From Candidatus Terasakiella magnetica (GTDB lineage: Bacteria; Pseudomonadota; Alphaproteobacteria; Rhodospirillales; Terasakiellaceae): a stretch of 64,000 nucleotides of DNA. This document shows, one piece after another, positions 40,382 through 49,988 of this stretch. The notes under the pieces were generated by a model. That model had not been told where the DNA came from, did no database searches, and was given only the letters and a program-made list of their open reading frames with translations. The position numbers and the translations under genes are program-made. The stretch's first letter is position 1. Every line of letters begins with the position of its first letter. The stretch lies in the NCBI RefSeq assembly GCF_900093605.1, contig NZ_FLYE01000012.1:62001-126000 (forward strand), in the 5' to 3' direction.

Positions 40382-41611
40382 TTAACGACCTTGCGTTAAG
40401 TCCTCTTCAGGGTATGCACCGATATGGTGGATGGAGAGGTCAGCACCGCGGAATTCTTCTTCTTGATCCAAGCGGATACCAATTGTTTTTGCCAACACGC
40501 CATAGACCACAAAGCCTGAGATGGTAGCAAACGCGATACCGATGAGGGAGCCGACCAGTTGTGCCATGAAAGTGACACCGCCCATGCCGCCAAGGGCTTC
40601 TAGGCCAAAGACACCACAAGCCAAGCCACCAAGCAGGCCGCACATACCGTGCAATGGCCACACACCGAGCACGTCATCGATTTTCCATTTGTTCTGACAC
40701 TTCTCAAAGCCCCAAACAAACAACGCACCAGCTAAACCACCTGTTACAAGCGCGCCGATAGGGTGCATCACGTCAGAGCCTGCACAAACCGCAACCAAGC
40801 CCGCAAGCGCGCCGTTATGGATGAAGCCCGGATCGTTTTTACCCACAACAACCGCTGTTAAGATACCACCGATCATCGCCATTAAAGAGTTCACGGCCAC
40901 AAGACCAGTTACACCTTCAACAGATTGTGCAGACATGACGTTAAAGCCGAACCAACCCACACAAAGGATCCAAGAGCCTAATGCAAGGAACGGGATGTTG
41001 CTTGGTGGAATACCAATAACAGAGCCGTCTTTTTTATAACGTCCCATACGTGCACCAAGCATCACAACTGCGCCAAGGGCTAACCAGCCACCAACACCAT
41101 GCACAACGATTGAGCCGGCAAAATCATGAAAACCAGCGCCGAAGCTTTCTTCAATCCACGCTTGAAGGCCAAAATTGCCGTTCCAAACGATCCCTTCAAA
41201 GAAAGGATACACCAGACCGGTTAGAATAGCCGTTGCGATCAATTGCGGGAAGAAACGTGCGCGCTCAGCAATACCGCCAGAAATAATCGCCGGAATAGCC
41301 GCTGCAAAAGTCAAAAGGAAGAAGAATTTGACCAGATCAAAACCGCTTTTGGCAAATAAGTCACCGCTTGCGCCCGAAATCACACTGGCCGGGGCCAAAA
41401 AACTTACCCCATACGCCACCATGTAGCCCACAAAGAAATAAGCAACGGTGGATACTGCGAAATCCACAATGATTTTAACAAGGGCGTTCACCTGATTTTT
41501 ACGACGAACAGTCCCAACTTCTAAAAATGCGAAGCCTGCGTGCATGGCAAGAACCATAATGGCCCCCATCAACACGAAAAAGACATCTGCACCAATTTTA
41601 ACGGTTTCCAT
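40382..41611 (-). CDS. amtB: Ammonium transporter, second AmtB copy
   Basis: A 409-residue Amt/Mep/Rh-family ammonium channel with about eleven membrane helices. The twin pore histidines are visible in IVVHGVGGWLALG and WPLHGMCGLLGG, so ammonium conduction should be intact. It lacks the cleavable signal peptide seen in the copy at 41952-43277. The 340-nt upstream gap (41612-41951) holds nitrogen-regulation sites and the terminator of the other amtB, so it is likely transcribed on its own and induced by ammonium limitation. The C-terminal tail is short and ends in a charged EEDLTQGR. Confidence 0.93.
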   Translation of the reverse strand: METVKIGADVFFVLMGAIMVLAMHAGFAFLEVGTVRRKNQVNALVKIIVDFAVSTVAYFFVGYMVAYGVSFLAPASVISGASGDLFAKSGFDLVKFFFLLTFAAAIPAIISGGIAERARFFPQLIATAILTGLVYPFFEGIVWNGNFGLQAWIEESFGAGFHDFAGSIVVHGVGGWLALGAVVMLGARMGRYKKDGSVIGIPPSNIPFLALGSWILCVGWFGFNVMSAQSVEGVTGLVAVNSLMAMIGGILTAVVVGKNDPGFIHNGALAGLVAVCAGSDVMHPIGALVTGGLAGALFVWGFEKCQNKWKIDDVLGVWPLHGMCGLLGGLACGVFGLEALGGMGGVTFMAQLVGSLIGIAFATISGFVVYGVLAKTIGIRLDQEEEFRGADLSIHHIGAYPEEDLTQGR

Positions 41612-41951: not shown

Positions 41952-43277
41952 TTACACAGTTTGTGAGCCGCGACCGAACTCAGGATAGGCTTCCATCCCC
42001 AATTCAGCACGATCCAAACCAAGCTCCTCATCTTCTTCGGAGCAACGGATGCCAACTGTAGCCTTCAGGATGAACCAGACGATCGCAGAAGTAACGATTA
42101 CAAATGCGCCGATGGAAACAACACCGATAGCTTGAGTAGCAAATGAAGTGTCAGCGTTAGTTGCAGGAACAATCATTGTGCCCCAGATACCACACGCCAA
42201 GTGAGCAGAGATTGCACCAACAACGTCATCGATTTTAAATTTATCGAGAAGCGGTACAACAAACACAACGATCACACCGCCAACAGCACCGATCAGGAAG
42301 GCAGACGCCAACGTTGGTGTGTCAGGACCAGCTGTGATGGAAACAAGACCACCGATCGCGCCGTTTAATGTCATAGAAAGGTCAACTTTCTTATAAACAA
42401 GTTGTGTCAGGACTGCCGCTGCGATTGTACCGCCAACAGCTGCCATATTTGTATTGATAAAGATGTTTGAAATCGCAACCGCATCAGCAGCTGTACCCAG
42501 CGCCAATTGTGAGCCGCCATTAAAGCCGAACCAACCGAGCCACAGGATGAACGTACCCAATGTCGCCATTGGCAGGTTTGCACCCGGGATTGGCATTACA
42601 CGGCCATCAGCATCATATTTGCCTTTACGTGCACCAAGGATGATTGCACCAGTCAATGCACACCAGCCACCAGTTGAGTGTACGAGTGTCGAGCCGGCAA
42701 AATCAGCAAAGCCCATTTCAGCCAACCAGCCGCCGCCCCACTGCCACATGGCAATAGTTGGGTAGATGAAACCAGAAAGAACAACTACAAAGCCAAGGAA
42801 AGGCCATAGTTTAATACGTTCCGCTACCGTACCGGAAACCACTGAAGCTGCTGTTGCAACAAATACCATCTGGAAGAACCAGTCAGAAGAAGCTGCATAG
42901 CCACCAGAGAAATCACCGCCAAGTGCAGCTGCATCATCTGGACCCCACAAAGAGAAGGAACCGATGAAACCACCTTCAACGCCACCATAAAGCACGTTGT
43001 AACCCACAAGGTAGAACATGAAGCCTGAAACAGCGTATAAAACGATGTTTTTCAAACAAATTGTTGCTGTGTTCTTGGAACGAACCAAACCTGATTCCAA
43101 CATGGCGAAACCAGCCGCCATAAACATCACCAAGAAACCACAAACCAAGAAAAGAAATGTATTTAGAATATATTGTACTTCAGCGTCCGGGCCTTCAGCC
43201 AGGGCGGGATCAATCGCAGCAACCAGCCCAAGCATGGCAACCAGCGAGATTTTTGAAAGTTTTTTCAACGCAGTCAT
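41952..43277 (-). CDS. amtB: Ammonium transporter AmtB, glnK-linked
   Basis: A 441-residue ammonium channel. A signal peptide (about residues 1-27, ending PALA) precedes the membrane domain, as is usual for AmtB. Pore histidines are in LVHSTGGWCAL and ISAHLACGIWG. It lies 14 nt behind glnK and has AAGGAG 9 nt before its ATG, so the two form the classic operon in which GlnK plugs the channel when ammonium is plentiful. The long C-terminal cytoplasmic tail (GIRCSEEDEELGLDRAE) is the part GlnK contacts. Confidence 0.96.
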   Translation of the reverse strand: MTALKKLSKISLVAMLGLVAAIDPALAEGPDAEVQYILNTFLFLVCGFLVMFMAAGFAMLESGLVRSKNTATICLKNIVLYAVSGFMFYLVGYNVLYGGVEGGFIGSFSLWGPDDAAALGGDFSGGYAASSDWFFQMVFVATAASVVSGTVAERIKLWPFLGFVVVLSGFIYPTIAMWQWGGGWLAEMGFADFAGSTLVHSTGGWCALTGAIILGARKGKYDADGRVMPIPGANLPMATLGTFILWLGWFGFNGGSQLALGTAADAVAISNIFINTNMAAVGGTIAAAVLTQLVYKKVDLSMTLNGAIGGLVSITAGPDTPTLASAFLIGAVGGVIVVFVVPLLDKFKIDDVVGAISAHLACGIWGTMIVPATNADTSFATQAIGVVSIGAFVIVTSAIVWFILKATVGIRCSEEDEELGLDRAELGMEAYPEFGRGSQTV

Positions 43278-43291
43278 TGTCTTAGAACTCC

Positions 43292-43702
<411 letters not shown>

Positions 43703-43849: not shown

Positions 43850-45355
43850 TTAGGCAGAAATGAGCGCGCACAAAAGGAAACGTTGAAGTTTTGCCCCAAC
43901 CCACTGCTGGACCATTTCATCGGGCTGACCAAGGTAGGGCTTCATTTTCTCACCAAGCTCATCAACACTAAAAGACCCATCCATAAGCGCGAGCAATTTA
44001 TCCTCATGCTCACTCAGTTTGACGGCTTCATGATGGATATTACAAACAATATCTGAGTGTTGCGCCCAATAGCGTACAAAATCATAGGCTTTGGGCTTAA
44101 TGGTAAGCACGCTCTGGGATTGATCCTCATTTGCCATCACAGAAACAATGCCCATTTTAACCATTTCAATCAAAATACCATCCAGCTCAGCCTTTATAGC
44201 TTCCACAGCTATTGTCCCAAGTAAGCCATGTGTGCGCTCCACAAGTTCCTCATAATTAAGACGCAAAGGAAAAGCGCGCACCATTTCGATGAGGGCTGTA
44301 CAAATCACCAGCCCTTGGGGACTGGCCTTAATATTGTATCTTTTAAAACCCTCAATGGAAATCTGCGTCATTTTACCAATCTGATCGGGATGGATTGGCG
44401 TGGTGATTTTACAGTTCATTATAAAACGCACATTTTTTAAATGCTCAATCTTAAGAGCCTGTACGGGCTCCACACCCGCCTTGACCATTAAACTGCTTCT
44501 GAATTTCCGGTTGTTCAGATAATCGCCATATTGCTCATAATTGACCCTATCGCCTTGGTTGCCCAAAACCTGTGTTATTTGATTTTGCACCTCTTGGGAA
44601 ACCGAAGAGGCAAATTCCGTATCACATAAATACTGTAAGCCATTCTCTTCGGCCTTGGTGGCAAATTCATGGAAATAACAGGGGTTATTATCTTCTTCCA
44701 TATAATCATGCAGCAGATAATTATCCTCGGCTTTTAAAACACCATTAAGGTCAGGTTCTAAGGCCTGACGATAAGGCGCATGTTCGGGCTTAATATGGTC
44801 TTTAACAAAGCCCGCTACCTGTTTGGCCTGTTTGGCTTTTTGCGCAGGCTCTACAGCCTCTTTGGTATGAAAGAGCAACATATCACGCACAGTTTTTGCC
44901 GCCTGCCAACCCGGATAGGTATTATAATTAATATAAGTCACACCTTGGTCACTTAGACAATGAGCACAAACCCGCATGACATCGTCTTGCAGATTTTTAG
45001 GGATCCAGGAATAGAGCCCATGGGCAATGATATAATCAAACTTCTGGTCGCCAAAGTCATACTCAGCAAAGGATTGTGCGACAAAGTCGATATTCTTTAA
45101 CCCAAGGCCCTCACAATGATTTTGTGCAATCTCAATCTGAACAGGAGATAAATCAATTCCTAAAAAACTGGCCTCTGGATAGCGCACAGCAAGGGGCAAA
45201 ATATTACTGCCTGTCGCACAGCCCAACTCAAGAATGCGCGCCCTAGAAAGATCAGCCGGCTTTAATCCATGAATATGGGCTAACCCATTGAATTGTTCAG
45301 GATTTGACTGTTGGTAGAAATAACTGAGATACACAGCTTCGTCATAACTGGTCAT
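43850..45355 (-). CDS. Protein lysine methyltransferase-like protein with regulatory domain (rickettsial PKMT family)
   Basis: A 501-residue protein. The N-terminal methyltransferase domain starts with YDEAVYLSYF and has motif I ILELGCATGSN (residues 41-51), then DYIIAHGLYSWIP and YNTYPGWQAAKTVRDML. This is the pattern of Rickettsia PKMT enzymes, which methylate lysines of outer-membrane protein B. A central methyltransferase-regulatory domain (about 215-300) and a C-terminal winged-helix-like region follow. No OmpB-like target is in the window. It is divergent from the PRMT-like gene; 160 nt separate them. Confidence 0.85.
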   Translation of the reverse strand: MTSYDEAVYLSYFYQQSNPEQFNGLAHIHGLKPADLSRARILELGCATGSNILPLAVRYPEASFLGIDLSPVQIEIAQNHCEGLGLKNIDFVAQSFAEYDFGDQKFDYIIAHGLYSWIPKNLQDDVMRVCAHCLSDQGVTYINYNTYPGWQAAKTVRDMLLFHTKEAVEPAQKAKQAKQVAGFVKDHIKPEHAPYRQALEPDLNGVLKAEDNYLLHDYMEEDNNPCYFHEFATKAEENGLQYLCDTEFASSVSQEVQNQITQVLGNQGDRVNYEQYGDYLNNRKFRSSLMVKAGVEPVQALKIEHLKNVRFIMNCKITTPIHPDQIGKMTQISIEGFKRYNIKASPQGLVICTALIEMVRAFPLRLNYEELVERTHGLLGTIAVEAIKAELDGILIEMVKMGIVSVMANEDQSQSVLTIKPKAYDFVRYWAQHSDIVCNIHHEAVKLSEHEDKLLALMDGSFSVDELGEKMKPYLGQPDEMVQQWVGAKLQRFLLCALISA

Positions 45356-45515
45356 TTTTTGCCCTAGATCAAAAAAACATTACCTTGCAATGTGATCATC
45401 ACCTCAAAGAGAAGAAATTACTATCCTTAATTATAAGGCATAAACCCATGACAAATTGCTCATAATCCCATATTCTTCTCTTATCTGTTTGGATTAGGAT
45501 ATTTTGCGCTCTAAA

Positions 45516-46805
45516 ATGGAAGCCTTCAAATTAATGGCCAAGCCATCCGATACAATCAAAAGGTTGCTTTCACAAGGAGCCAGCGAACTTGCTGGTGCCA
45601 AATATGAAGCTGCGCGCAAAACCTTTGAGACAGCCCTTGAAATTGAAAACGATAATATCAGCGCCAATTACTTTTTAGCTGCAACCCTTGAAGAGCTTGA
45701 TGAGACTGATCTCGCAGTTGAAACCTACCTTAAAGTCATTAAGCTCGATGCAACCGTGCGCCAAGCCTATATCCAACTGTCTAATATCTTTTACACACAA
45801 GATAAAAAACAAAGCGCTCTTGGCATTTTAGAGACCGCAAGACACCAGTTTCCAAAAGATAAAGATATCTTATATTTGCGCGGTCAGGTCGCCATGCAGT
45901 GCTTGCCCGGTTGGCATTTACCTATGCTGGCTGACCAAGAACGCAATGACCTTTATGAAAAAGCCATCAACGCCACCGTGCGCACAGGCGACATTGCCCT
46001 TGATATCGGCACGGGCTCCGGCTTACTCGCCATGATGGCGGTGCGCGCAGGGGCTGCCCATGTTTATGCCTGTGAGTCTGAGCCTTTTGTGGCTGAGCTT
46101 GCGCGCCAGATTGTTGAAAAAAATGGCCTAAGCGATAAAATTACTGTCATTAACAAACGCTCCAACGACCTTGTGGTTGGGGAAGATCTGCCGCAAAAAG
46201 TCGATATTGTACTGACTGAAATTTTTGATCGTGCCCTTGTTGGTGAAGGTATTTTACCGACCTTAAATCATGCCTGGAAAAACCTGCTTAATGACGGCGC
46301 GCGCATTATCCCCCAAGGGGCCACCCTTTATGGCGTGGTGATTGAATGCCCGCACCTGCAACGTTTTCACCATCTTGAAACCGTAAATGGTTTTGACTTA
46401 AGTGAAATGAATGTGCTGGCCCATCCACTGGCTTATAAAGATGGTATGATTGACCTGCAAGAAAGCGAGGATCATCGTATCTTAAGCGAGCCTTTCATCA
46501 TTCGAAAATTTGATTTTCGCTATCCCCCGCCTTTGAACTTTCGCGAAAAATGCCCGGTGAATTTTAAACAGGATGGCACGGGTGATGCGATTTTAATGTG
46601 GTTTGACCTACATCTTACCCATGACTTGACCTTTTCAACCCAAAAACCCAAACCGCGCAACCATTGGCGCCAAGCCGCCCAGATTTTGCTCAAGCCCCAG
46701 CCTTGCGAAATTTCTAAGCCCTTGATGCTTAAAACCTATTATCGGAACTATTTTGATTTTGAATTGGGCAAAGAAACCAAGAAAACTCTAAAGAAGGTAA
46801 AATAA
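45516..46805 (+). CDS. TPR protein with PRMT7/9-like arginine methyltransferase domain
   Basis: A 429-residue protein. Residues about 15-125 form three tetratricopeptide repeats. The rest resembles protein arginine methyltransferases of the PRMT7/PRMT9 type: WHLPMLADQERNDLY, then motif I LDIGTGSGLLAMMA (about 162-175), the double-E loop TEIFDRALVGEG (about 234-245) and the late HWRQAAQIL THW-like element. Both active-site glutamates are kept. The start is ATG 45516; TTG 45504 (AGGA nearby) and ATG 45534 are in frame. Target proteins are unknown; flagellin or ribosomal proteins are possible. Confidence 0.82.
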   Translation: MEAFKLMAKPSDTIKRLLSQGASELAGAKYEAARKTFETALEIENDNISANYFLAATLEELDETDLAVETYLKVIKLDATVRQAYIQLSNIFYTQDKKQSALGILETARHQFPKDKDILYLRGQVAMQCLPGWHLPMLADQERNDLYEKAINATVRTGDIALDIGTGSGLLAMMAVRAGAAHVYACESEPFVAELARQIVEKNGLSDKITVINKRSNDLVVGEDLPQKVDIVLTEIFDRALVGEGILPTLNHAWKNLLNDGARIIPQGATLYGVVIECPHLQRFHHLETVNGFDLSEMNVLAHPLAYKDGMIDLQESEDHRILSEPFIIRKFDFRYPPPLNFREKCPVNFKQDGTGDAILMWFDLHLTHDLTFSTQKPKPRNHWRQAAQILLKPQPCEISKPLMLKTYYRNYFDFELGKETKKTLKKVK

Positions 46806-46917: not shown

Positions 46918-47523
46918 ATGGGCATACGTGAAACTGGCAGGTTTGAACAAAAAAACACAACAAAAGCTTTCACCCATTTCCATCAGCTCTTTGATGAGCC
47001 AAACGATCCACAAGAGCTCCAACACCTGCGCGAAAATACCTGCCTGAGCAAACTCAGCGCACAAGATGTTGAACGGCTCACTCGCCCAGTGCCCTATAGC
47101 GTGCGGTATTTCAAATCAAAACGCCGCGGGTTTTTCTGGCGTTTGATCACAGCACAGTTTGAACATCTCTTAAGCAATGCCACCATCAGCCGAAATAACT
47201 TGGCTGCCTATTTTGACCTATTCACAACACTTTACGGGAGGCAAAACATCATTAACGCCAATGAAGAATGTTTAAAACTGGTCAAAAACCTCCATGCCGA
47301 TAATGGGCAGTCTTTAAGCGTTCAACAGTTTTATAACCACCCCACCAGCAAAATAATCCTCACTGACTTTGTTGAGACACTTTCTGGGCAAATCAAAGAA
47401 AACCCCAAAGAGCGTGTTAACTGGATGGTGAATTTTCTTAAAAAACGCTGCCTTGTCTATAAAAACAAGCCCCATACAGAAGCAGAGTTAAAAACGATCC
47501 TGCAGGAACTCAAACTGCTTTAA
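46918..47523 (+). CDS. Conserved-looking soluble protein of unknown function
   Basis: A 201-residue protein of unknown family. It has no signal peptide, membrane segment or nucleotide-binding motif. It is basic (many lysines and arginines, for example SKRRGFFWR near residue 61) and mostly helical by composition. The ATG at 46918 is preceded by GAGGAG 12 nt upstream, a somewhat long distance. It sits between the PRMT-like gene (112 nt away) and the SGNH-like gene (84 nt away), with a weak dyad downstream. Confidence 0.65.
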   Translation: MGIRETGRFEQKNTTKAFTHFHQLFDEPNDPQELQHLRENTCLSKLSAQDVERLTRPVPYSVRYFKSKRRGFFWRLITAQFEHLLSNATISRNNLAAYFDLFTTLYGRQNIINANEECLKLVKNLHADNGQSLSVQQFYNHPTSKIILTDFVETLSGQIKENPKERVNWMVNFLKKRCLVYKNKPHTEAELKTILQELKLL

Positions 47524-47607: not shown

Positions 47608-48759
47608 ATGAAAAAATTTTTCCATAATTTTTTGCTTGTTTTAGCCAGCCTGACTTTCTGTTTTCTTCTTCTGGAAATCGGGTTGCGTTTTTTGCCTGTC
47701 AAAACTGGTTTACAAATCCAAGCCGTAAATGAAAACGACCCGGTCTTTCATGCAACGCCAAATATTGATTATACCTACTCAAACGGCTGGTCCTTTAAAA
47801 TACCCAACACAGGACATGTGAATTCTGACGGGTTTGTGAATGATCAGGATTATGATGCCTCTGCCACAACACCGCTTATGGCCGTGATCGGGGATTCCTT
47901 TATTGAATCCCTCATGGTGCCTTATGACAAAACCATTCAAGGGCGCTTGGCACAATCAGTTAAAAATACAGGGCGTGTTTATTCATTTGCATTTTCTGGC
48001 GCGCCGTTAAGCCAGTATCTTATTTGGGCACAATATGCACAGGCAAAGTTCAAGCCGGATATCATGTCCTTTGTCATCATTTCAAATGATTTTGATGAAA
48101 GCCTACTCAAATATAAAAAAGCACCCGGCTTTCATTATTTTGACCAAAATAAGCTTAGACGTATTGATTATACACCGGGTTTTTTAAGAACGATCGTTAA
48201 TAGTTCAGCCGTTTTCAGATATCTCGTCTATAACATGCATATTCATAAAACCATTGCTGCGGGCTTAAGATTACTCCCAACTGATTTCTATCAAAGCTTA
48301 AAATCACTCTTTATCTCTAAAGAGGAAAAATCGCCCAGTGATACCTTAAGCCGTATTTTTGAAAATAATGTCCCTGTCACTGTAAGTGCAGAAAAATCAA
48401 CAGATGCGCAACGGGCCATTGATCTCTTTCTGGGTAATGTTGTTGAATATTCCGGCCTGCCAGCAGAAAAGATCGTCTTCATCATCGATGCTCTTAGAGC
48501 ACGGATTTATCAAAACCAGCCTCAATCCAATAAGGGCTATGCGGCCTCCATGTTTGCCTATTTCAAACAGCAAGCTCAGGCCAAAGGCTTTAATGTTATT
48601 GATACGGACCCTTATTTTAGGCTTGATTATCAAAAAAATAAGACGCAATTTGATTTCTTGCCATTTGACGCCCATTGGAACGATCATGCCCATGGGGTCA
48701 TTGCAACTGCAGTGAAACAACACCCGCTCATCCAATCCACTTTCTTTACGGATAAATGA
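47608..48759 (+). CDS. Secreted or membrane-anchored SGNH/AlgX-like hydrolase
   Basis: A 383-residue protein with an N-terminal hydrophobic segment (residues 5-25). SGNH blocks are recognisable: GDSFIES near residue 99 (Ser), a glycine in SGAPLSQY, an asparagine in ISNDFDES near 154, and DAHWNDHAHG near the end (Asp-x-x-His type). SGNH proteins on the periplasmic side often add or remove acetyl groups on polysaccharides. The stop overlaps the UbiH start (ATGA), so the pair is co-translated although their jobs look unrelated. Confidence 0.72.
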   Translation: MKKFFHNFLLVLASLTFCFLLLEIGLRFLPVKTGLQIQAVNENDPVFHATPNIDYTYSNGWSFKIPNTGHVNSDGFVNDQDYDASATTPLMAVIGDSFIESLMVPYDKTIQGRLAQSVKNTGRVYSFAFSGAPLSQYLIWAQYAQAKFKPDIMSFVIISNDFDESLLKYKKAPGFHYFDQNKLRRIDYTPGFLRTIVNSSAVFRYLVYNMHIHKTIAAGLRLLPTDFYQSLKSLFISKEEKSPSDTLSRIFENNVPVTVSAEKSTDAQRAIDLFLGNVVEYSGLPAEKIVFIIDALRARIYQNQPQSNKGYAASMFAYFKQQAQAKGFNVIDTDPYFRLDYQKNKTQFDFLPFDAHWNDHAHGVIATAVKQHPLIQSTFFTDK

Positions 48760-49988
48760 ATATAATCATGCCTCAAAAAATCAAAACAGATGTTCTCATC
48801 ATCGGCGGTGGACTTGTTGGTGGTATGACGGCTTGTGCCTTAGCGCGCGGTGGTGTTGATGTTATTGTGGTTGATGCCGATGATCCAGAAACCTTGCTCA
48901 AGGCCGAGTATGATGGGCGTTGTTCAGCCATTGCACGCTCTGTCCATAATGCCTTTGTTGCCCTTGGCCTGTGGGAACATATGGCACCTGAAGCCGGTAT
49001 CATTGAAGATATCCGTGTAACCGATGGGGCATCGCCCCTGTTTTTACATTTTGACAGCCTTGATCTGGTTGGTGTGCCTTTTGGCTATATGCTGGAAAAC
49101 CGCACGGTGCGCAAAGCCATCCTTAAAGTCGTGCCGGAAATGGACCACGCCACATATTTAGCCCCAAAACGCGTGCAACATATAGAGCGCAACGCCTCTG
49201 AAGTAAACGCCACGCTTGATGATGGGACTGAGATTAACGCAAAGCTGGTGATTGGGGCCGATGGTCGCGGCTCTTGGGTGCGCCGCTCAGCCAATATTGA
49301 TATTACCAAATGGTCTTATGAACAAACCGCCATTGTCTGCACGGTTGAAAGCGAAAAGCCGCATCTTAATGTGGCCCAAGAACATTTTCTGCCCAGTGGC
49401 CCCTTTGCCATCCTGCCCATGCAAGATAAACGCAGCTCCATTGTCTGGACAGAAAGCACACGCAACGCCCCTGTCATGATGAAACTCAGTGATGAAGATT
49501 TTCAAGCAGAGCTAACGGAACGTTTTGGCAATTATTTAGGCGAGGTAAAAGTCGAAGGCCCGCGTTGGTCTTATCCGCTCACCTTACAATTTGCCAAACG
49601 TTCCATTGATCAGCGCCTTGTTCTTGTGGGCGATGCCTCCCACGGGATGCATCCGGTGGCTGGCCAAGGTTTTAACATGGGTGCGCGCGATGCCTGCGCC
49701 ATTGCTGAGCTGATCATCCAGACCAAGCAACTGGGCCTTGATGTGGGCGCGGGGCGCGTTTTAGAAGATTATGATCGCTGGCGCCATTTTGATAACCATC
49801 TCATGCTGGCCTCCACAGATGCCATCGTGAAACTTTTTTCTAACAACAGCTCACCTATCCGTTTTGCCCGTGATGCGGGCCTTGCCATTGTGGAACAGCT
49901 CCCCTTTGCCAAGAAATTCTTCACAAAATCAGCCATGGGCCTTGTCGGAGAGTTACCCGAGATCATGAAAGAGCGTGAGGCGTCTTAA
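48756..49988 (+). CDS. UbiH/UbiF/VisC/COQ6-family FAD-dependent hydroxylase
   Basis: A 410-residue flavoprotein monooxygenase that should hydroxylate the ubiquinone precursor ring. The FAD dinucleotide fold is VLIIGGGLVGGMTA (about residues 13-26) and the second FAD motif is GDASHGMHPVAGQGFNMG (about 290-307), both diagnostic for the UbiH/F family. Which ring position it hydroxylates (UbiH, UbiF or UbiL-like) cannot be decided. The stop overlaps the region just before the next asnB start at 49990 by 1 nt distance, giving an operon. Confidence 0.9.
   Translation: MNIIMPQKIKTDVLIIGGGLVGGMTACALARGGVDVIVVDADDPETLLKAEYDGRCSAIARSVHNAFVALGLWEHMAPEAGIIEDIRVTDGASPLFLHFDSLDLVGVPFGYMLENRTVRKAILKVVPEMDHATYLAPKRVQHIERNASEVNATLDDGTEINAKLVIGADGRGSWVRRSANIDITKWSYEQTAIVCTVESEKPHLNVAQEHFLPSGPFAILPMQDKRSSIVWTESTRNAPVMMKLSDEDFQAELTERFGNYLGEVKVEGPRWSYPLTLQFAKRSIDQRLVLVGDASHGMHPVAGQGFNMGARDACAIAELIIQTKQLGLDVGAGRVLEDYDRWRHFDNHLMLASTDAIVKLFSNNSSPIRFARDAGLAIVEQLPFAKKFFTKSAMGLVGELPEIMKEREAS

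Follow-up and report, generated by a model that had tools for sequence, protein, structure and literature searches.

Predicted lysine and arginine protein methyltransferases as probable chance neighbours in Candidatus Terasakiella magnetica

In the 64,000-nucleotide stretch of Candidatus Terasakiella magnetica DNA analysed here (the window), which belongs to a 3.68-Mb draft genome in 47 contigs (G000), two divergent genes encode predicted protein methyltransferases. ORF A (43850..45355, minus strand) is read as an OM-type protein lysine methyltransferase (PKMT) of 501 aa, and ORF B (45504..46805, plus strand) as a TPR-PRMT of 433 aa when translation begins at the TTG at 45504. The intergenic gap (45356..45503) then measures 148 nt, and lengthens to 160 nt with the ATG at 45516 or to 178 nt with the ATG at 45534. 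The original prediction had placed the two genes side by side and divergent across a gap of 160 nt, an arrangement that the coordinates confirm and a distance that corresponds to the ATG 45516 start; our preference is for ATG 45534 as the likely true start, since two congener homologues of the PRMT begin close to that codon in the alignment. Promoter-like matches between 43600 and 47100 were about as frequent as in shuffled sequence (10 vs a shuffle mean of 7.4).

The left anchor of the locus is a glnK/PII-type gene (43292..43687, minus strand), recognised by congener synteny, past which two amt-type genes lie further from ORF A (41952-43277 and 40382-41611). Downstream of ORF B, a 201-aa protein is encoded at 46918..47523 (plus strand), with a homologue at the equivalent place in one congener; it gave no Pfam, NCBIfam or PHROG match, and its predicted model is all-helical and of low confidence (pLDDT 65.6). 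A gene for a UbiH-type FAD monooxygenase (48756..49988, plus strand), present in all six genus genomes and placed by synteny, forms the right anchor. The names glnK/PII, amt, UbiH (or ubiH-like) and asnB-like are those we presume for these genes rather than the outcome of a library search. Around the PKMT gene no mobile-element marks were recognised and the repeats are short and chance-like; its GC content (0.436) is above the window mean (0.402).

Across the six genus genomes the gene order is held in common as amt, amt, glnK, then ubiH-like and asnB-like genes, with the frame filter hiding glnK in G001 and G003 and the G003 contig stopping inside an amt gene. Between glnK and ubiH, the PRMT gene occurs in three of the six (G000, G005 and G002) and is absent from G001, G003 and G004, and a PKMT gene between glnK and the PRMT gene is found in G000 only. 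The G005 genome does encode a PKMT (38% identical), situated ~315 kb from its own PRMT gene and adjoined by an autotransporter gene. The glnK–ubiH interval is variable within the genus.

Among solved structures, ORF A matches Rickettsia PKMT1 (5dnk) at E 8.9e-83 over residues 3-462 of 501 and PKMT2 (5doo) at E 2.5e-70 over nearly its full length, the next-best methyltransferase structure being far weaker (E 9.5e-10). Pfam detects a methyltransferase domain, MethyTransf_Reg (E 1e-22) and PKMT_2nd (E 1.8e-8), and the protein comprises a SAM-binding region (~38-150), MethyTransf_Reg (211-292) and a PKMT C-terminal winged helix (~420-472); the homology to PKMT1/2 does not stop at the SAM domain but extends to the C-terminal regions, the extent by which OM PKMTs are recognised. 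According to the available text of one study, Asp102 and His146 of RpPKMT1 contact AdoMet, and Leu103 and Ile130 affect OmpB binding (PMC11784438). The first two residues correspond to D68 and H112 of ORF A and are conserved throughout the 11 aligned sequences, of which ORF A is one; Leu103 is kept as L69, and Ile130 is replaced by Phe (F96) at a position where the 10 other aligned relatives carry Ile (nine) or Leu (one). On sequence grounds, ORF A is a predicted OM PKMT of the rickettsial PKMT1/2 type, and the earlier call of a rickettsial PKMT-type enzyme is borne out by the nearly full-length match and by the AdoMet residues in place.

Gene neighbourhoods were scanned in unfiltered frames for 26 PKMT relatives, comprising all 16 other order-level matches and 10 of the 50 other class-level matches, picked by score and leaving out G218, G392 and G088 despite similar scores. 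Overlap-filtered ORF calling had missed the PKMT in four of 27 stretches, and yielded 64 PRMT frames across the 80 named PRMT loci considered below, two congener stretches and the window. An autotransporter gene stands at most 166 nt from the PKMT frame in five of the 26 neighbourhoods (G005, G461, G322, G183 and G542); PF03797 was confirmed by Pfam in the autotransporters of all five, and the four best-scoring relatives of ORF A are all among these loci. An autotransporter within 200 nt is absent from the other 21: in G278 one lies 7.7 kb from the PKMT gene, and in the remaining 20 none was found within the fetched stretch. IalB-family genes occur within ~5.2 kb of the PKMT gene in seven of the 26, with an eighth at 7.4 kb (Pfam-confirmed in all four scanned), and an alpha/beta-hydrolase-like lipoprotein gene is likewise nearby in seven (above the Pfam cut-off in one of two scanned). 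Since the IalB and hydrolase profiles were built from these same loci, their matches are independent only elsewhere (IalB in G528 and G414; hydrolase in G528 and G552). In a single neighbourhood, G375, the PKMT gene is flanked by two flagellin genes, with a TPR-sulfotransferase alongside. The 80 PRMT loci serving as a control (1.16 Mb) contained no autotransporter, IalB, hydrolase or PKMT gene and one flagellin gene, a comparison that is loose because some of these loci are Gram-positive.

Taken from the autotransporter, IalB, hydrolase and flagellin neighbours among the 26 loci, the PKMT branch to which ORF A belongs often travels with surface-protein genes, and the presence of an autotransporter next to its four closest relatives among the 26 points to a surface target; OmpB is itself an autotransporter. 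With no surface-protein gene beside it, ORF A is an exception in its branch. Searches of the G000 genome found no autotransporter (PF03797, best E 0.034) and no YadA-type anchor (PF03895, best E 0.64), and flagellins are present at two loci. As association with an autotransporter is not a strict definition of OM PKMTs, its absence from this genome only lowers confidence in the class assignment.

ORF A resembles the OM PKMTs of Rickettsia (RpPKMT1, RtPKMT2; 5dnk, 5doo) over nearly its full length, with identical SAM-binding Asp and His, and resembles OM PKMTs with autotransporter targets in that its nearest relatives are encoded beside autotransporters. It departs from RpPKMT1 in having Phe for Ile130 and in adjoining a PRMT gene, and from the Rickettsia PKMTs and Acinetobacter KmtA (the latter likened to it by family only) in residing in a genome where neither an autotransporter nor a YadA anchor was detected. 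A further difference is the host genus, Terasakiella, which is free-living. According to the available text of PMC11784438, OmpB is methylated by rickettsial PKMTs, and the substrate of KmtA is the trimeric autotransporter adhesin AtaA. ORF A would most likely use SAM to methylate a surface or secreted protein at several lysines, and its nearest relatives probably act on the autotransporter encoded next to them; we infer this activity and substrate, together with the place and timing of methylation. As no autotransporter-type target was found in G000, the enzyme there may act on another surface protein, such as flagellin, or the gene may be an acquired orphan.

The latter reading, in which the G000 gene is decaying or was acquired without its target, is rather unlikely, though the most probable of the rival readings. 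It would fit the absence of a PKMT gene at this locus from all five congeners, the lack of a detected autotransporter partner in G000, the divergence at the Ile130 position and the variability of the glnK–ubiH stretch; the intact 501-aa frame and the retained catalytic residues argue against it.

Turning to ORF B, Pfam identifies TPRs and PRMT_C (E 1.3e-12), and the top phmmer matches are PRMT7 (4c4a, E 5e-57) and PRMT9 (8rbk, E 1.4e-41). TPR helices (~14-133) precede a PRMT Rossmann fold (~134-270) and a PRMT_C barrel (272-394 and beyond). A bacterial PRMT profile, made from seven sequences with ORF B included, totals 299 bits over the two modules of mouse PRMT7 and 276 and 264 bits over those of PRMT9; for the first module only, the values are 189 for mouse PRMT7 and 200 and 195 for PRMT9. 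Worm and trypanosome PRMT7 score 185 and 183, and the best score outside PRMT7/9 is that of PRMT3 (132). Judged by sequence comparison, the family identity of ORF B, like that of ORF A, is far beyond chance.

The predicted model of ORF B, built with 40 of 63 listed sequences, reaches a pLDDT of 94.0 and a pTM of 0.87. Bovine PRMT9 is the top Foldseek match (TM 0.75 by query length), and a second aligner matches bovine PRMT9 (8rbk) to model residues 12-427 with 409 residues aligned, an rmsd of 4.5 and a Z score of 29.2. Over the PRMT module the Z scores are about tied (TbPRMT7 30.8, human PRMT9 30.8, mouse PRMT7 30.4), and few rows of the fold comparison extend to the TPR part, essentially one chain (8rbk). 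On the strength of the 409-residue alignment with bovine PRMT9, the predicted layout of ORF B mirrors that of PRMT9 from the TPR region through its first module, the TPR part of this correspondence coming mainly from that one chain and from Pfam. With the double-E and HW motifs read as in the available text of PMC12153873, E239, E248 and W388 are invariant among the 40 aligned bacterial sequences; D242 is found in 39 and H387 in 34, the other six having Cys at the H387 position. ORF B combines the Rossmann fold and PRMT_C barrel with the double-E and THW-type loops by which PRMTs are recognised; sequence and model together suggest that it is most likely a genuine PRMT. The original assignment to the PRMT7/9 type agrees with PRMT7 and PRMT9 as the best matches and with the active-site residues in place.

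In common with PRMT9 (bovine 8rbk, human 6pdm), ORF B has a TPR region ahead of a PRMT module, the folds agreeing over those 409 aligned residues, and it has the same D in the double-E loop. Unlike PRMT9, it is bacterial, carries HW where the first PRMT9 module has CW, and contains one PRMT module instead of two in tandem, for which last reason it is not filed as PRMT9. It shares the HW motif with mouse PRMT7 (4c4a), to which the bacterial profile gives its highest total score, and the single module with TbPRMT7 (4m38), which holds the top Z score of 30.8 jointly with human PRMT9; the available text of PMC8399567 describes T. brucei PRMT7 as single-module. What separates ORF B from PRMT7 is its bacterial origin and the Pfam-detected TPR repeats ahead of the PRMT module. 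In the proposed mechanism, the TPR superhelix probably docks a substrate protein, two subunits probably dimerise via the PRMT arm, and the double-E loop and HW motif would position the arginine for methylation. The product would most likely be monomethylarginine and possibly symmetric dimethylarginine, the product type being a guess.

A pattern scan of genome contigs returned 368 stretches, in 323 of which a relative of ORF B is encoded. The best 80 of these 323 were kept, and their titles span Alphaproteobacteria, Streptomyces and other actinomycetes, Bacteriovoracaceae, Magnetococcales, Cyanobacteria and Roseivirga, taxa that are record titles, many of them of metagenome bins whose names are possibly wrong. 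The PRMT occurs in 56 of 385 class-sample genomes at E 1e-12 or better, the weakest matches perhaps not being of PRMT7/9 type, and in 30 of 317 order genomes at 1e-30. Outside the genus, no conserved PRMT neighbour was seen among the 25 largest clusters or in 11 loci inspected. One close relative, L026, adjoins a flagellin gene (1 of 80 loci), which is no more than a hint. The suggestion of a flagellin or OM target shared by both enzymes stands in one part: for the PKMT taken by itself a surface target is plausible, given the autotransporters in five and the flagellins in one of the 26 neighbourhoods of its relatives.

An improbable account of ORF B is that it has the PRMT fold but methylates something other than protein arginine, such as RNA, a small metabolite or free arginine, its TPR part serving only as a scaffold. 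That none of the clusters listed represents a neighbour conserved beyond the genus is in keeping with it, as are nine loci (eight actinobacterial by title) in which a common gene family lies near the PRMT gene, some of these frames maybe being high-GC artefacts. Against it stand the intact double-E glutamates, HW motif and PRMT_C barrel, together with a best Foldseek match, aligned over the whole length, that is PRMT9, a protein arginine methyltransferase.

As regards the pairing of the two genes, the 317 order genomes, searched at thresholds of E 1e-40 for the PKMT and 1e-30 for the PRMT, contain the PKMT in 17 cases, both genes in two (1.6 expected) and adjacent genes in one. In the class sample, where many PKMT matches span the N-terminal half only, both genes occur together in 20 of 385 genomes where 7.4 would be expected (hypergeometric 2e-6, with genome size and kinship uncontrolled) and, by genus, in 12 of 277 genera against 4.4 expected (3e-4, with the same factors uncontrolled). 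This is a real excess in raw counts, which counts against a fully independent pair, and a looser functional tie between PKMT and PRMT is possible. Eight class-sample genomes have a PKMT of at least 380 bits, a cut chosen afterwards, and among them only G000 has the PRMT too. Of the other 19 class genomes with both genes, 13 have them on separate contigs and six have them 358 kb or more apart, these being draft contigs for which adjacency at contig ends is conceivable. At E 1e-20, no PKMT was found in the 80 other PRMT loci, covered for up to 8 kb on each side and often less.

A conserved PKMT–PRMT gene pair was accordingly rejected, adjacency being kept neither in the genus nor in the order, the class sample or the 80 PRMT loci. 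The original prediction of a new modification pair had named restriction of the pairing to this genome as the result that would speak against it, and within what was searched the pairing was seen in this genome only (adjacent in 1 of 317 order genomes, in none of the 19 other class genomes and in none of the 80 PRMT loci). The data suggest that the pairing is accidental. A true modification pair, with both enzymes acting on one flagellin or other surface protein under co-regulation by the divergent arrangement, is very improbable, since the short gap, the class-sample excess and the flagellins beside one PKMT relative (G375), beside one PRMT relative (L026) and elsewhere in G000 are set against the near absence of adjacency in order, class sample and PRMT loci, the lack of an adjacent PKMT gene in two of the three PRMT-bearing genus genomes and the ~315 kb between the genes in G005.

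The explanation that we favour with good confidence is that ORF A and ORF B are two functionally separate accessory protein methyltransferases that became chance neighbours in the variable stretch between glnK and the ubiH-like gene. Of greater reach, and offered as a tentative possibility, is the proposal that single-module TPR-PRMTs form a widespread bacterial family, catalyse genuine protein arginine methylation and are a prokaryotic sister or source of eukaryotic PRMT7 and PRMT9, the TPR-plus-module layout of PRMT9 then predating the duplication. In the titles and abstracts of the open-access literature, among the matches listed, no description of a bacterial PRMT7/9-type enzyme was found. 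Two abstracts point in the opposite direction, one stating in passing that PRMT1 occurs in prokaryotes and eukaryotes (PMC10418467) and the other that an arginine residue of Salmonella PhoP is open to methylation (PMC8546571). The origin and duplication of PRMT7 are said to warrant further investigation (PMC8399567).

The PKMT–PRMT pair itself is not a system. Among the relatives of ORF A, the grouping of the PKMT gene with IalB, autotransporter and lipoprotein hydrolase genes in a cassette supplies concrete candidate substrates of OM PKMTs. The greatest interest lies in the TPR-PRMTs of bacteria, whose predicted architecture resembles that of the first half of animal PRMT9: if these enzymes are active, PRMT7/9-type arginine methylation would occur in several bacterial phyla (by record title), and the origin and duplication of PRMT7 would become testable from the bacterial side.

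Directly downstream of the PRMT gene, at window positions 46918-47523, lies the gene for a 201-aa protein that falls into no known family; its homologue in the congener G005 (L178:10546-11307) likewise follows the PRMT directly. The two proteins match at 43% over 145 aa, with a basic KRRG stretch in the conserved core, and the 201-aa protein is a possible partner or substrate; in a second congener, G002, no homologue directly follows the PRMT.

One gene family recurs close to the PRMT relatives at nine loci (L046, L060, L061, L073, L076, L083, L085, L093 and L098), eight of which have actinobacterial record titles; some of its frames are perhaps artefacts. The THW loop reads CW rather than HW in six bacterial PRMTs (L053, L057, L066, L069, L071 and L072), labelled Bacteriovoracaceae and Pseudanabaena by title, and in this they resemble PRMT9, whose first module also carries CW.

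Several relatives of the outer-membrane PKMT occur in a recurring cassette that combines an IalB-family protein, an autotransporter, the PKMT and an alpha/beta-hydrolase-like lipoprotein. It was seen at L180, L216, L182, L181, where the fetched stretch ends before any IalB gene, and L221, where the PKMT precedes the autotransporter, as well as at L223 and L224, both without the autotransporter. The host genome encodes a 587-aa protein (G000:C43:89010-89699; stretches L193 and L194) with a weak autotransporter-like match (E 0.034) and what look like three outer-membrane barrel domain repeats.

At L026:4598-7237, a PRMT relative that is among the two closest outside the genus (best 80 of 323 relatives kept; 64% over the PRMT module) lies next to a divergently oriented flagellin gene, the sole flagellin found in the scan of 80 PRMT loci. 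In genome G375, the PKMT relative is flanked by a flagellin gene on each side and adjoined by a TPR-sulfotransferase (L184:4889-11648), a neighbourhood that suggests a flagellin-directed branch within the outer-membrane PKMT family.
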